From NCBI GenBank assembly GCA_963575645.1, contig OY754464.1, positions 66,500,948 through 66,564,947 on the forward strand: DNA of 64,000 nucleotides. Direction: 5' to 3'. The DNA is from Xanthostigma xanthostigma (taxonomy: Eukaryota; Arthropoda; Insecta; Raphidioptera; Raphidiidae). Positions within the stretch are counted from its first letter, which is position 1; the number at the start of each line of letters is the position of its first letter. The notes beneath the pieces were generated by a model. That model had not been told where the DNA came from and did not search any database. It was given only the letters and a program-made list of their open reading frames with translations. Of this stretch, positions 8,237-54,682 are shown in pieces. The translations under genes were made by a program, and so were the position numbers.

Positions 8237-8650
8237 GAAAAAGAAATATCCATCAGTTCATTACTTACAAAAAACTATTTAAAACATAACAGAAAGAGAA
8301 AAAGAATACAGTTCTACGTGTAAATAATTGTCATCGTTAGATAAGAATAGCATTCTGACATTCAATTAGGTCAAAATAATTAAATGTTTGCTTCTGTCAC
8401 AGGTTGTTCAAACCCGATAGTAGATTTTCGTGTACCAGTGCGGTATCATTAATTATAAAGAAATCCTGTGCACCTCCTAGGCTAATTCTATACACCATAC
8501 TCATTACTCCGTATGCGCATATCTTGTACGTGCAAGAGTGAACAGCTGTCAGTTATCGGCCTCGTGTTCCTTGAATATGCAATTTTATTTTGGTAAACCT
8601 TGTAAAATTTATTAATAGTGTTAAATTGTGTATGATTAACTTTAATTTAG
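8237..8650. other. no recognisable feature
   Basis: No protein-like frame and no repeat ends were recognised. Confidence 0.4.
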
Positions 8651-8714
8651 ATTGAAGGAGATTTATTTGGTTGATGAACAATTGAAAAATAAGCTTTACC
8701 AGAGTATCGCTTGT

Positions 8715-8754
8715 GGACAACGTTTCGAAAAATATAAATTTCATCATCAGGGCC
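8715..8754 (-). ncRNA. hammerhead ribozyme motif (type I-like)
   Basis: On the minus strand: stem I GGCC, core CTGATGA, stem II closed by GAAAT.../...TTTTTC, core GAAA, two-base-pair stem III ACGT, cleavage-position T, then GTCC. Both invariant core boxes are intact. Stem I has one mismatch (GGCC against GTCC). Such minimal stem III forms are known to work best as dimers. Cleavage activity is inferred, not shown. Confidence 0.55.
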
Positions 8755-8865
8755 TATGAACATGTATAGTATTCATTACATTTAATATTATTTTGATGTC
8801 TAAATTACAAATATAGATAAAACTAAACATTACCTCAATGCAAGTTGATATAATAAATTATCATA

Positions 8866-8904
8866 GGCCCTGATGATGAAAATATATTTTTCGAAAGGTT
8901 GGCC
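8866..8904 (+). ncRNA. hammerhead ribozyme motif, stem III mutated
   Basis: GGCC, CTGATGA, TGAAAATATATTTTTC (stem II pairs G-AAAA with TTTT-C), GAAA, GGTT, GGCC. Stem I and both core boxes are intact, but stem III reads AGGT instead of ACGT, which probably weakens it. Confidence 0.5.
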
Positions 8905-8955
8905 ACAAGCGATAAATTGTTCCTCAACCAAATAAATCTCCTTCAATACATATTT

Positions 8956-9390
8956 TTGGAACAAAACTTCTACTAACAATTTAATTTAGATACTTATGAT
9001 CTCCCTTGTCGAGCGTCTATAATTAAATAATAAAATTTCATTATGCGACTTGATCTTGGTGAGCGTTGAAGTGTCGTTTTGAGTTTTCGACGCTAACATA
9101 AACTGTCAAACATGGATAATCTACAATTTCTCTCTGTCTCTTTGTGGGTTGGAAATAGCTGTTGTAATGGAAGGCTAGGTAAGCAAAGTTTCCATAATCT
9201 TTTGTCGTTTTTTTCATGTTTCGTGTTGAAATGTTGTTTTAGGTTGTGCAAAAAACATTTTAAGGTTAAATAAAAATAGCACAAAGAAACTTTAGTTCTG
9301 TATTTGATACGTTTGTCCCAAAACCGTGAGTGTAAAAATTGAACCAGTGACTTGACACTAGGTTACTCATTAAGATAGTATAAACTTTTC
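8956..9390. other. no recognisable feature
   Basis: No supported gene. The small reading frames here lack family features. Confidence 0.4.
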
Positions 9391-20265: not shown

Positions 20266-20997
20266 AGTTTATTTATTCCGTTGATATAAATGTGTGGAAC
20301 AAGTCAAACATAGAATTTACAATGAGGTCGAAAAAAATTCTTGGATTGAATAAAAAGTGTGCTGAATTAAGAGACGCTTGATGGTGCGTTTGAAACAAGA
20401 TAGGCTATTAATGGATTTAACATTAGCTGGTAATTGATTATATAATTTTATAGGCATAGAATTTGGGCCTTTAGCAAACAGATTTAAATGGTGCTTCGAA
20501 ATTGTTAGCTGATCATTATTACGTAGAAAGTGACAAGTAGTGTCGCTAACTTTCGAAAATGTGTTAATATTTGATTTAACATACGTTAAGCAATTATAAA
20601 TATATAAAGAAATGACTGTTAAAATTTGATGTTTTTTAAACAGAGGGCGGCAAGAGTCTCTATAATTTGAAAACGACATCAGTCTAATTATTCTTTTTTG
20701 CATAATAAGTATATCGCCAATACGCGTGGAATTACCCCAACATACAATTCCATAACTGAGCGTGGCAAATTTACTAATAGCTTTGAGTAAATTCTATCAG
20801 ATGCCATTACGTGTTACTAAAAGAAATTTTTTGAGAAAATACCGTAATTCCATACAATAAATATTTAATAAAAACTATCCTATAGCGTAAGTTGCACTAA
20901 CACACATTTACAAAATTCCATTAAAATCTGTTCAGTGGTTTTGGAGATTAGCGCGGCCAAAATTGTGACACGGGAATTTTATATATATTTATATAGA
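20093..20997 (-). mobile_element. Helitron-like element split by a LINE
   Basis: 3' end region GCGGTTCGTGCCGGTCTCAC, and a 5' region matching TCTATATAAATATATATAAA at 20978-20997. The interior (ATTCTGCAAAATGTATTTCG and TGTTCAGTGGTTTTGGAGAT-type) matches 56127-56325. The middle, 20236-20793, is an inserted non-LTR fragment. Confidence 0.6.
20236..20793 (-). pseudogene. non-LTR retrotransposon reverse-transcriptase C-terminus with tail
   Basis: The minus-strand frame is open from 20793 to the stop at 20317 (about 158 codons), well upstream of the first ATG at 20703. It reads LSYGIVCWGN, then QKRIIRLMS, CRPLFKKHQILTVISLYIY and KGPNSMPIKLYNQLP. This is the conserved C-terminal part of Jockey/CR1-type ORF2, downstream of the catalytic palm (Y/F-G-x-x-W-G-N, Q-K-R-x-I-R, L-T-x-x-S-L-Y-I). 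The 3' UTR ends in a TAA/TTA microsatellite tail (20239-20266). No frameshift was seen in this piece, but the catalytic core and endonuclease are absent, so it is a 5'-truncated dead copy. Flanking sequences 20171-20225 and 20773-20825 resemble each other and may be a long, old TSD. Confidence 0.85.
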
Positions 20998-39998: not shown

Positions 39999-40070
39999 GA
40001 TGGAATAGTTTAACTGGAAAAATATTCGACATGTAATCGAAAAATCAGGGTTCGAATTCCAGTTCAGGTT
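39999..40070 (+). pseudogene. tRNA-like sequence, anticodon position TGT
   Basis: A-box TAGTTTAACTGG and B-box-like GGTTCGAATTCC. The five-pair anticodon stem TTCGA/TCGAA is perfect, the loop CATGTAA places TGT (threonine) at 40032-40034, and the D stem forms one G-T plus three T-A pairs. The acceptor stem pairs only partly (about 5 of 7 with wobbles), the T stem has a mismatch, and position 33 is A instead of the invariant T. It is probably a pseudogene or SINE head. An A-rich run follows. Confidence 0.5.
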
Positions 40071-42844: not shown

Positions 42845-43325
42845 AAAACTTTAAACGAGTCATATAAAAAACAGTCAACTTTTCTAACAGTGGGTATAAT
42901 TAATCTGAGATGTGTGAGAAACAGACGCATCGGTTTAATTTTATCCGGGCGCCGCAGTTCAGTTACCACTGGTATAAAATGCGATCGTATCGTTTGATTG
43001 GTATCTTTATTAAACGTTTATTACTTATTTATAAGTTAGGTTGCGTGTGTCGCACCCACCCACACAAAAAGTCCGACGGACGATGTCTTACGTAATGGTT
43101 ATGTGTGTTGCGTACATAATTGATCGACTGTACAGATTATCTATATTAGTCATGACTCTTTTGTTTTTCGAGTGTTGCGTCATCGAAGTTACCTTTAACA
43201 CGGCATTTTAGTGCTCATCAAAAAATTCTCCCATAAGTTTAAAAAAAGGGGAATTATAAAACGGTCGAATAAAAAAACAAATTTGGTGACTGATGATGAG
43301 ATACTGTTTTAATAACTTGAGATAT
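42845..43325. other. no recognisable feature
   Basis: No supported frame or boundary. Confidence 0.4.
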
Positions 43326-43328
43326 TAA

Positions 43329-43850
43329 AATAATAGTTGGGTGACTAAATTACTAAGTGAGCGACTAGAATGCCTTCGGTAATTTTGAAGCAGATATCTT
43401 CTTTTGTTATTACTTTTTATTTTTTTTTCACTTTGAGACTACAACTTAAAACTCACATTTTCATGAAGATTGAAAACCACCGATTTTTTTGATAAAGGGG
43501 TATGCGAACTGTCTCGCAGTGAAACGCGATGGAGCAAAGGTGGAGTTTTTAAAAAAATAATTCCGGGGTGAACGATAAACGCGTATGCGAATTGTAATGC
43601 CGGGGTGAACGATAAAGGGGTATGCGAATTGTCTCGCAGTGAAACGGGAAGGGGCAAATGTTGAGTTTTTAAAAAAACAATTCCGGGGTGAACGATAACG
43701 GGGTATGCGAATTAAGTAGTTAATTGTTTGAATAGAACTGCGTTTTCTAAAAAATGTATATTTAATTGACAGTCAATTAAATATATATTTTTTAGAAAAA
43801 GCAGTTCCATTCAGTCGCTCACTTAGTAATTTAGTCAACCAACTATTATT
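43329..43850. mobile_element. foldback element with minisatellite and terminal palindrome
   Basis: Ends AATAATAGTTGGGTGACTAA and TTAGTCAACCAACTATTATT are inverted. They extend through ATTACTAAGTGAGCGACT. Inside, GGGGTGAACGATAA...GGGTATGCGAATTG units repeat (43490-43710). 43730-43812 is an almost perfect palindrome of about 41-bp arms (TTTAATTGAC-AG-TCAATTAAA centre). GACTAGAATGCCTTCGGTAA is shared with the GTGATAACGT family at 23347. No TSD found. Confidence 0.65.
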
Positions 43851-44082
43851 TTCTCATCACGCGCAGTCAGTCGCTCACTTAGTATAATACAGTAACCCAA
43901 ATTGATTATTTTTGTCATCCAAAATTGTAATTTACAGTCACTCGTTTAAATACTACCCTTAAAAAAACACTAGTCGCGGCACGCACGACCGAAGTAAAAC
44001 TTCTTTTGGTATAATAAATTTAATATGAAGGAAGGTTTTTGGTTGAGGATCGCAAAATAAGCTTTACCAGTGTTTCGCTAGT

Positions 44083-44121
44083 GGCCAACGTTTCGGAAAA
44101 TTTATTTTCATCTTCAGGGCC
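44083..44121 (-). ncRNA. hammerhead ribozyme motif
   Basis: Minus strand: GGCC, CTGAAGA, stem II TGAAAATAAATTTTCC, GAAACGTT, GGCC. Stem I and both core boxes are intact. Stem II pairs GAAAA with TTTTC with a one-base shift. Confidence 0.65.
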
Positions 44122-44152
44122 TCAAGCTGGTCAAGTAGTGGTAAAAGCTTGA

Positions 44153-44191
44153 GGCCCTGAAGATGAAAATACATTTTTCGAAACGTTGGCC
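44153..44191 (+). ncRNA. hammerhead ribozyme motif, complete core
   Basis: GGCC (stem I), CTGAAGA, TGAAAATACATTTTTC (stem II, GAAAA/TTTTC), GAAA, ACGT (two-pair stem III), T (predicted cleavage position, GTT triplet), GGCC (stem I). It matches the type I consensus with the minimal stem III reported for Penelope-like elements. It is the best ribozyme candidate in the window. Confidence 0.7.
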
Positions 44192-44395
44192 ACTAGCGAA
44201 ACACTGGTAAAGCTTATTTTGCGATCCTCAACCAAAAACCTTCCTTCATCTTAATATTCTATTGGATCAACACTACTTTAACTGAAAAAATAAATTTAAT
44301 TTTTGGAAGCTATGTATCTAAACGGAGGCCTTGGTAGCAGTGAACGGGGGAAAAACAAAGGCGCACATATTATGTATTTGTATTCAGATCATAGC

Positions 44396-44480
44396 TTAAG
44401 GCCGCTGCACACGAGGCTAGAAACGCTGCTAGATTCCTTACTAGATTTGCCTTACTAGTTTTCTAGCGCTGGTTTTCTTG
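44396..44480 (+). mobile_element. truncated MITE, relative of 26635-27034
   Basis: TTAAGGCCGCTGCACACGAGG followed by AGAAACGCTGCTAGATTCC and ACTAGTTTTCTAGCGCTGG, then lost. Only one end survives. Confidence 0.6.
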
Positions 44481-44832
44481 ATTAATGTTAAGTGCTCGCT
44501 TCCGAGTATAAGCGAGTTAAATAAAACGTGGTAAAATAGGCGTTCATGCGAATGAATATTTTGAGAAAATTGACGTTGACGCGAACGCAGACGCGGGTTC
44601 AGGCTAGTAATTTAATGAGAGGATGCCCGGTATGTAATAAACTGCACAGTTGCACCATTTGCCGTGAAACGTGTCGGATCACTGTATTATGCAATCTAAT
44701 CAGAATGAAGGTTACTCTGCGGTTCCAAGGAACTTGACTCCAGTGTAGACATTGTCATTGATGCAACGAATGTCGTTACCGTGCCTTGTCTTGCGTTTGA
44801 ACATATCTGTGATTAGAAAAACAAAATCGTTT

Positions 44833-44996
44833 ATTGAAGGAGATTTAATTTGGTCGAGGAAGAATTGAAAAATAGGCTTTACCAGAGTATCGCTTGCGGT
44901 CAACGTTTCGAAAATTATATTTTCATCCTCAGGGCAAGCGATAGTCTTGTAAAGCTTATTTTTCAATTGTTCCTTAACCGAATTAAATCAACTTCA
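44833..44996. mobile_element. Penelope-like foldback, diverged
   Basis: TTGAAGGAGATTTAATTTGG with AAAAATAGGCTTTACCAG, then the inverse AAGCTTATTTTTCAATTG and AATTAAATCAACTTCA. The right arm lacks the hammerhead half. Confidence 0.65.
44891..44940 (-). ncRNA. hammerhead ribozyme motif with long stem I
   Basis: Minus strand: CGCTTGC, C, CTGAGGA, stem II TGAAAATATAATTTTC, GAAACGTT, GACC, GCAAGCG. CTGAGGA fits CUGANGA with N = G. A seven-pair outer stem I (CGCTTGC/GCAAGCG) closes the motif, but the GGCC next to the core is reduced, leaving an internal loop. Confidence 0.55.
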
Positions 44997-44999
44997 CTA

Positions 45000-45480
45000 C
45001 ATATTTTTGGAACAAAACTACTACACTAACAAAATCGTTAATGTTGAATTTTCGAAATTTTTACTTTCGAGCGACCACAGAAGTGAAGAAATTTTTATTA
45101 TGACTTGAAAAATCGAATCCGAGATTTCGGCGGATTAATTTTGGGTTTCTGATACCATTTTCAGTCTTAAATGTAAATTGTTTTCAACTCTCTGGAGTTT
45201 GAAACAATTTATGACATCTTAAATCTAAAGCTCAAAGTCATAGTAAAAACCGAGAAACCCGCAGCATTACACTATTCATTGTTCCTAACTTCCTACATAC
45301 CGAAAAATGAGTTGTGGAAACCCATCCATTCATAATCGATACACGGTTCAACGGAACCAAATTTTGTACTTTTGAGGTAATTCTAAGCGACGTTTTACTT
45401 ATTTTCTTCCCATAAATAAGGGTGGTTTTTACTGATGAACAAAATTAGAAAATTGCTATTTAGGTACTCGAATACAGCAT
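45000..45480. other. no recognisable feature
   Basis: No supported frame or boundary. Confidence 0.4.
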
Positions 45481-45486
45481 ATAAAA

Positions 45487-45981
45487 CTAGCCGTTACCCG
45501 CGACTTCGCACGTGATTGAGACGAAACACGGCTGCATTTCCATTATTTGGCATAGTTACCCCTAAAACTATGTAATCTATGGTTACTCCTTTCTCGACGT
45601 AGATCCCCCTAATAAATTTCAAAATTGATGACGTTTACGTGATCGACGTCTTGACAAACCTTGAAAATGACACTTATGTTGATTTTTAGGCTATTTACCT
45701 CTTTTCACCCTCTGAAGGGGTTGTTTTTGAAAAAGCATGAAACACGTGTTTATTTATTTGTTAACAGCAGTAATCCTGCGCATTTTCGAATTGATACATC
45801 TATCTTATATGAATTCTTCATGAAAATTTTGAATCCCCGTTACACCCTTTTAGGGGTTGAATTTTTAAAAATTCGTTCTTCTATCTGTGCGCCAAATTTC
45901 ACCCCAATTCGTCTAGTGATTTGAGCTGTGCGTTGATAGATCACTCAGACAGGCACGGTTTCCTTTTATATATTATTTAGA
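45487..45981 (-). mobile_element. Helitron-like element, complete ends
   Basis: 5' TCTAAATAATATATAAAAGG (minus strand, flank A) and 3' GCGAAGTCGCGGGTAACGG then CTAG (45487-45490, flank T). 495 bp. Contains CATGAAACACGTG and CACCCTTTTAGGGGTTGAA. Same family as 28817-29287. The plus-strand frame 45661-45924 is part of the repeat. Confidence 0.75.
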
Positions 45982-45984
45982 TTC

Positions 45985-46300
45985 TTTATATTATGTATGT
46001 GTGTAATGATGTATTTTTTTTAATTGATTTGACGGATTTTGATGATTTTTTTATTGTTTCTAATGATTCCAGAAGTGTTATAGTTTTTTTTTTAATTTTT
46101 AAATTAAAATTTGATTAATAAATTAATTACATATTTTATGTTCTTTTTTTAGCCTTTGTGATCGATTTGAATAAATATTTTTGTTTAATAGAGCATATTT
46201 AAGGTGGTCTCACATAAATTTTACTTAAATCAGTTCGGCAGTTTGTTTTAGTTATTTATTAAAATATTAAGAAACAAGGCGATTAATGACGTGCAAACTA
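45985..46300. other. AT-rich, no recognisable feature
   Basis: Poly-T-rich sequence without a frame. Confidence 0.4.
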
Positions 46301-54143: not shown

Positions 54144-54464
54144 TTAACCGACTTCAAAAAAAGGACGAGGTTCTTTATTCGATTGTATTTTTTTTTGTTT
54201 TTTGTTTTTTTTTTTTTGTATGGGTATTTGTCGATAACTTTGCCGGCTGTGAATCGATTTAGATAATTCTGTTTTTGACTAAAAATTGGTTCCATATATA
54301 AATTTTAGCAAAGTCGGCTCAGCAACTTTTTGGAATATTAACAAAAATCAAAGAAATATTGCAAAAGTTGTAATTGGCGTGAACGTTGTTCTTCGGTTTC
54401 ATTAGACACTAAAAACGGCCACTAATAAATTTAAAAAAATAAGAAAACGTAAAGAAAAATTGAA

Positions 54465-54636
54465 TCTCCTTCAAAAAATGATCACTAAAAAGCGTGAAAT
54501 AACAAAATTTTGAGCTCGACACCAATTTAATATACCTATATAAAACTATACTAGGTATATAAAACGTGATTAAATTGGTGTTGACCTCAAAGCTTTGTTA
54601 TTTTACGCTTTTTAGTGACCCTTTTTTGAAGGAGAT
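54465..54636. repeat. foldback family A, copy 2
   Basis: TCTCCTTCAAAAAA...CACTAAAAAGCGTGAAATAA pairs with TTATTTTACGCTTTTTAGTG...TTTTTTGAAGGAGA. Homologous to 46306-46457. Confidence 0.8.
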
Positions 54637-54682
54637 ATAATTTATTTAAAAAAAGTTTTTTAAGTACCCACTTTATTCATAA

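Follow-up and report, generated by a model that had tools for sequence, protein, structure and literature searches.

How do two predicted hammerhead ribozymes come to stand back to back in one short foldback of an insect genome, and do they act there? The locus lies in a window of 64,000 nucleotides (the whole stretch of DNA that was analysed, from contig OY754464.1 of Xanthostigma xanthostigma). A sequence-only reading had described it as a near-perfect foldback with a back-to-back pair of hammerheads, and this description is confirmed: an inverted-repeat search places the foldback at 44020-44254, with a left arm on the minus strand (44020-44128) and a right arm on the plus strand (44146-44254), each of 109 nucleotides, that are 97% complementary and separated by a spacer of 17 nucleotides (44129-44145); there is one hammerhead core per strand. 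The true extent exceeds the 44022-44256 originally assigned: the whole inserted element runs from 44025 to 44288 on the plus strand, as defined by the bounds of its duplication and by comparison with 39 other copies, and is flanked on both sides by identical 12-bp target-site duplications, AATAAATTTAAT (44013-44024 and 44289-44300). The first five nucleotides of the left arm overlap the left duplication. Beyond the right arm the element continues for 34 nucleotides into an AC-rich tail (44255-44288, plus strand), a one-sided extension of the Penelope type. This insertion, called copy A here, belongs to a repeated family with two older relatives inside the window (copy B at 44835-45027 and copy C at 8653-8979).

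Both arms of copy A read GGCC-CUGAAGA-stem II-GAAA-CGUU-GGCC, with the core at 44157-44184 on the plus strand and at 44117-44090 on the minus strand. The arrangement proposed from the sequence, a core with a GGCC/GGCC stem I and a two-pair ACGT stem III in each arm and in opposite directions, is present in both arms, and all elements of a minimal type I hammerhead (CUGANGA and GAAA core, stem I, reduced stem III) are recovered by pattern and in the fold of the right arm. The predicted hammerhead of the right arm occupies 44153-44191 (plus strand; core motif and fold) with a predicted cut between 44187 and 44188, and that of the left arm 44083-44121 (minus strand; core motif) with a predicted cut between 44087 and 44086. 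Stem III of copy A, which is just ACGU, agrees with the minimal hammerhead forms of Penelope elements described in the available part of a review (PMC7761336). The pattern CTGANGA N4-30 GAAAC occurs six times in the window, with 0.56 occurrences expected and at most two in any of 100 shuffles, and four of the six belong to the foldback family.

Isolated-arm folding covered four arms (left and right of copy A, the arm of copy B and the left arm of copy C), with different outcomes. The right arm of copy A forms hammerhead stems I and II at -13.2 kcal/mol (z -1.97; 9 of 200 shuffles are equally stable), its pairing running from GGCC/GGCC through an internal loop and GCU/AGC to an A/U-rich stem II; its left arm retains stem I, and its best fold has stem II shifted. 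The arm of copy B has one stem I, one stem II and additional core pairs, and the left arm of copy C gave no hammerhead fold, 191 of 200 shuffles being equally stable. A search with the Rfam hammerhead models, which the sequence-only reading had recommended, yielded no match, whether at the gathering score over the whole window, at E ≤ 5 within 43000-46000 or at E ≤ 10 within 44136-44205; these models possibly do not cover the minimal forms. Stem II varies too little among the copies for covariation analysis. Between copies, 3.7% of the bases are changed in the hammerhead core and 2.7% in the rest of the element: the core is no better conserved, and no selection is thus visible on the inserted ribozymes, as would be expected of dead insertions.

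The two relatives in the window are older. Copy B (44835-45027, plus strand) has inverted flanks and a single hammerhead (44898-44932, minus strand), and its duplication, AACAAAATCGTT(T/A)AT, matches at 14 of 15 positions (44820-44834 and 45028-45042). Its right arm begins at position +35 relative to core C3, which is 4 nucleotides past the predicted cut (+31). Copy C (8653-8979, plus strand) has a hammerhead on the minus strand (8722-8750) and a second core on the plus strand (8870-8896) that is followed by G and not by C; it lies between exact 12-nucleotide duplications, TTTAATTTAGAT (8641-8652 and 8980-8991). The tails of both copies are alike and both are at the right. The CTCCTTCA/TGAAGGAG octamer of copies B and C recurs, oppositely oriented, in the ends of a different foldback at 54457-54643; this could be chance.

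Searching the genome (623 Mb in 28 contigs) returned 1809 first-look candidates, of which 40, copy A among them, were scored. Each of the 40 aligns as a foldback to the whole query or to the greater part of it, which gives 80 match rows, one per strand. All copy counts given here rest on these 40 foldbacks (39 retrieved with their flanks, and copy A), which were selected by similarity to the full foldback and are not representative of all insertion types in the family. The two arms are inverted in copy A and in all 39 retrieved copies. An AC-rich tail, with the outline TATTCTATTGGATCAACACTACTTTA-ACTGAAG, is found on one side only in 38 copies, on neither side in two (L018 and L036) and on both sides in none; a one-sided tail of about 30-40 nucleotides is a mark of Penelope pseudo-LTR ends. 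The left arm starts at ATGAAGG, in most copies after 0-5 nucleotides of TTAAG or a variant of it, and the right end is usually inside ACTGAAGAC or directly before it. Target-site duplications with a score of at least 9 were found in 33 of the 40 copies and in 0.96% of 1560 mismatched flank pairs. They have a median length of 12 bp (range 10-17) and an A+T content of 86%, compared with 69% in the flanks. Short duplications at A+T-rich sites are also typical of Penelope pseudo-LTR ends, the lengths here being somewhat above the 8-10 bp given for Penelope elements of the rotifer Adineta vaga in the available part of PMC3846280. One copy, L018, is included in every count despite a larger flanking palindrome: its foldback is at the centre of a palindrome with arms of about 275 nucleotides and no tail (L018:27-300 and its mirror), and it is either an insertion into another palindrome or of different origin.

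The copies differ most at their centre. The two arms extend unequally far into a common upstream sequence: relative to core C3, left arms end between -56 and +16 and right arms between -55 and +10, and this gives 35 distinct joins among the 40 copies. In copy A, where the join is contained in the spacer, the arms end at -28 (left) and -11 (right) and meet bluntly. Three further joins are blunt, 26 overlap (24 of them by 1-3 nucleotides) and ten have filler, of 1-9 nucleotides except in L037. The filler of L037 is 23 nucleotides long and could not be aligned with the sequence upstream in the element. Among the 30 filler-free joins, 26 overlap by at least one and 17 by at least two nucleotides, more than the 52% and 24% found among 919 simulated blunt joins; microhomology is thus enriched at the joins. 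Four joins recur, in nine copies altogether, and copy A and L048 have identical end points. The six pairs of identical joins compare with a mean of 0.97 after shuffling, and six were reached in 4 of 5000 shuffles; this excess needs caution because the shuffling breaks a length constraint imposed by the search. L028 and L032 have a common join and common left-arm variants at different target sites. This sharing and the recurrent joins may mean that some foldbacks were at times copied as whole hairpins. Left and right arm ends correlate at -0.77, which may be an effect of selection, and all 80 arms pass the predicted cut position, a result towards which the sample is biased by its selection.

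Partner arms are on average 96.5% identical, compared with 95.3% for left-right pairs from different copies, a difference that none of 5000 permutations reached. Rare variants common to partner arms were found six times, two of them in copy A; 0.65 were expected and the maximum in 2000 permutations was five. This suggests that both arms of each copy derive from a single source. The likeness of partners is a modest effect: an arm's own partner is among its nearest arms in no more than 13 of 80 cases (in a count that includes some flank bases), and arm grouping was judged from identity classes. The foldback, the tail, the duplication, the varying joins and the variants common to partner arms are all directly visible in the copies, and the joins, the duplications and the one-sided tail identify them as insertion scars.

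The statement of the sequence-only reading that the inverted pair has no reverse transcriptase beside it is borne out near the locus, where there is no frame of at least 110 amino acids between 40704 and 50490. The right-arm hammerhead of copy A contains an ATG (44163, plus strand), whose frame ends after 15 codons. Of the 40 right arms 32 keep CTGANGATG, and in all 32 the frame stops after 8-16 codons, in 23 of them after 15. In copy B it ends after three codons; the left arm of copy C is unlike copies A and B in that its frame is open to the end of the arm. The copies examined are all non-coding fragments, and the ATG at their hammerhead does not open a coding frame as it does in Penelope elements. 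Either the family is non-coding, to judge from these copies, or its parent is different at the ATG.

Which known elements have such an architecture? In copy A the predicted cut is 25 nucleotides after the A of the ATG, and the inner and outer starts of copying would be about 87 and about 126 nucleotides away. The closest parallel is PAc, the Penelope element of the green anole (PMC11167929), with its start codon at stem II and the hammerhead cut 26 nucleotides further. The tail of PAc is bounded by two internal start sites of reverse transcription, most of which begins in an AC-rich stem-loop 111-118 nucleotides into the frame; in vitro, the enzyme cuts and extends both strands, prefers A+T-rich DNA, uses uncut RNA and shows no strand difference in its start sites. 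The family described here is like PAc in the overlap of hammerhead and ATG with nearly the same distance from ATG to cut (25 and 26 nucleotides), in two start sites bounding the tail, in the AC-rich start region and in A+T-rich targets. The cutting and extension of two strands and the use of uncut RNA by the PAc enzyme also match the two-sided reading that we would give to the foldbacks. There are two differences. The ATG opens the coding frame of PAc and does not do so here; as the frames are short, the match to the PAc start codon is one of position only. Furthermore, one end is tailed and the other untailed in the foldbacks, which is more regular than the behaviour of PAc in vitro.

A second parallel is found in rotifers, for which the available part of PMC3846280 describes a Penelope insertion whose pseudo-LTR is inverted and which has a one-sided tail of 31 bp and a duplication of 9 bp. 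Pen2a of Adineta vaga and its relatives resemble the foldbacks in having an inverted pseudo-LTR, there beside a direct one, and a one-sided tail; unlike Pen2a, the foldbacks consist of two arms and a tail only, with no coding part. In the portions available, both PMC3846280 and PMC11167929 treat the one-sided tail as an optional feature. The proposal that these are hammerhead-bearing ends of the Penelope type in inverted arrangement is therefore supported, by the one-sided tails, the duplications and the likeness to published pseudo-LTRs. The inverted pair itself, which had been singled out as the unusual part, is less exceptional than was assumed, since inverted pseudo-LTRs with a one-sided tail have been published for Penelope (PMC3846280, in the part available). 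As for the ribozymes, the copies are like the minimal type I Penelope hammerheads of Cervera and de la Pena 2014 and Lunse 2017 (both via the available part of PMC7761336) in core, reduced helix III and position at the element's end; unlike those, the predicted motifs here form an inverted pair in one short insertion. Metazoan retrozymes (PMC7229834, in the part available) are also short and non-coding, with a type I hammerhead and long duplications, and most invertebrate retrozyme hammerheads cleave efficiently alone. Retrozymes, however, are direct tandem repeats of 150-450 bp each with a hammerhead, whereas the units here are inverted and occur as single pairs with a two-pair stem III. A search of open-licence papers returned no account of a head-to-head hammerhead retrotransposon, which proves no wider absence. 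Pattern scans of viral contigs gave zero and then three matches; the surroundings of these three were dissimilar by eye, and they were put down to chance.

We consider it probable that each foldback is one insertion, for which both target strands were primed on uncut RNA at two internal sites and the resulting short cDNAs were joined. The foldback looks as if just a very short terminal (pseudo-LTR) stretch of a Penelope-like retroelement, or of a relative that is non-autonomous, had been inserted, and in most respects it is laid out like the ends of Penelope-like elements. In the template RNA, the core of a minimal hammerhead would be overlapped by an ATG. The two strands of an A+T-rich target would be cut about 12 bases apart, and both DNA ends would then prime reverse transcription at two internal sites of the RNA, 34-39 nucleotides apart in copy A: one end would start beyond the AC-rich stretch and copy the tail, and the other would start before it. 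Both cDNAs would pass the position of the hammerhead cut and halt soon after; if the cDNAs read through this position, the template was uncut there, which fits the in vitro finding of an uncut RNA template (PMC11167929). The cDNA ends would be joined, usually via 1-3 nucleotides of microhomology or a short filler and in copy A bluntly, to leave two inverted arms with a tail on one side. We infer the participation of a Penelope enzyme, the simultaneous priming from two sides, a single RNA source and the lack of a later function.

The competing origin with the strongest case is an inherited foldback, a palindromic element that is transcribed and retrotransposed whole in the manner of a SINE, its hairpin having formed once or a few times. 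Forty copies of similar size were scored in one search, four joins recur, L028 and L032, from separate target sites, agree in their join and in left-arm variants, and no long frame follows the hammerhead ATG, as in a non-coding element. This origin is nevertheless unlikely for the family, as 35 of the 40 copies have distinct joins in which the common upstream sequence is used to different extents, and as partner arms are closer on average than left-right pairs of different copies. Less likely still is that a single cDNA folded back and primed its own inverted arm. Such self-priming, with an antisense template, is what the available part of PMC3846280 favours for the rotifer Penelope elements, where inverted repeats have palindromes at the join. 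Snap-back copying, however, predicts that the tail is copied through into the flank, and no copy has a tail on both arms; 33 of 40 copies have direct duplications, and inverted flanks were noticed in L018 alone (arms of about 275 nucleotides), the other loci not having been scanned systematically. For the foldbacks described here we favour priming from two sides over the self-priming preferred in that study. The two-sided explanation is weakened, and both the inherited foldback and snap-back copying gain, because the ATG opens no long frame and because inversion of the flanks was not scanned systematically.

The remaining two explanations are very improbable. Long inverted repeats with target duplications would suit a miniature DNA transposon or a foldback transposon with terminal inverted repeats, but such elements have symmetrical inverted termini and duplications of fixed length, and the copies have a one-sided tail, duplications that vary from 10 to 17 bp, ends that vary by a few bases, a hammerhead in each arm and a variable centre. 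The sequence-only reading had proposed a functional RNA switch between a long double-stranded RNA and self-cleaved ends, for which it speaks that both cores of copy A are intact and that its isolated right arm folds as a hammerhead. The predicted fold of the full foldback transcript has -189.8 kcal/mol, compared with -119.2 kcal/mol when the right-arm hammerhead is enforced, and none of the 14 hammerhead pairs appeared in the minimum-energy folds at 13 growing transcript lengths (44169 to 44289). With the duplex more stable by about 70 kcal/mol and the hammerhead pairs missing from the best folds, such a switch finds no support; core conservation is not above background either, and the structure is accounted for as an insertion scar. 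The foldback could possibly be a source of double-stranded RNA for small RNAs.

Two-sided target-primed insertion may also be placed in a wider context. It would be nearly an even call, and we put it forward tentatively, that a Penelope-like element, or a non-coding relative borrowing its enzyme, integrates in general by two-sided target-primed reverse transcription with end-specific starts on one RNA (far for the tailed end, near for the other), and that copying often breaks off shortly after the hammerhead, the insertion then being closed up as a foldback, so that individual integration events would be left as fossils in the genome. A hint that the hammerhead cut sometimes limits copying comes from copy B, whose right arm starts 4 nucleotides past the cut. 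If the proposal is true, start sites, template state, joining and cut-limited copying could be read from the foldback record. In the portions available, the texts consulted (PMC3846280, PMC11167929, PMC7761336) leave open how Penelope-like elements gain inverted ends and one-sided tails, and what role the hammerhead has. In a short foldback, the points at which the two cDNAs began and stopped, their join and the duplication are preserved together in a stretch of about 300 bases, and each foldback therefore documents one integration event directly; scars of this kind may reveal how the poorly understood Penelope-like elements integrate. Among the short palindromic repeats that are classed as miniature transposons, some could be insertions of the same kind.

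The neighbourhood of copy A contains further repeats. A near-perfect hairpin at 43729-43813 has arms of 42 nucleotides (93%) with one nucleotide between them, and gave sub-threshold matches to miRNA models, probably from its shape. A 40-nucleotide inverted repeat (43327-43366 and 43813-43852; 98%, 446 nucleotides apart) adjoins the end of this hairpin with its right copy and may mark the termini of a larger mobile element that encloses the hairpin. At 43491-43713 a unit of 103 nucleotides occurs twice (90%) with a spacing of 120 nucleotides. Further away, a minus-strand frame at 20317-20793 resembles, by eye, the C-terminal part of a non-LTR reverse transcriptase, and a tRNA-like match at 40003-40065 (plus strand; 30.7 bits with a threshold of 29 bits) is probably a degenerate tRNA-derived repeat.
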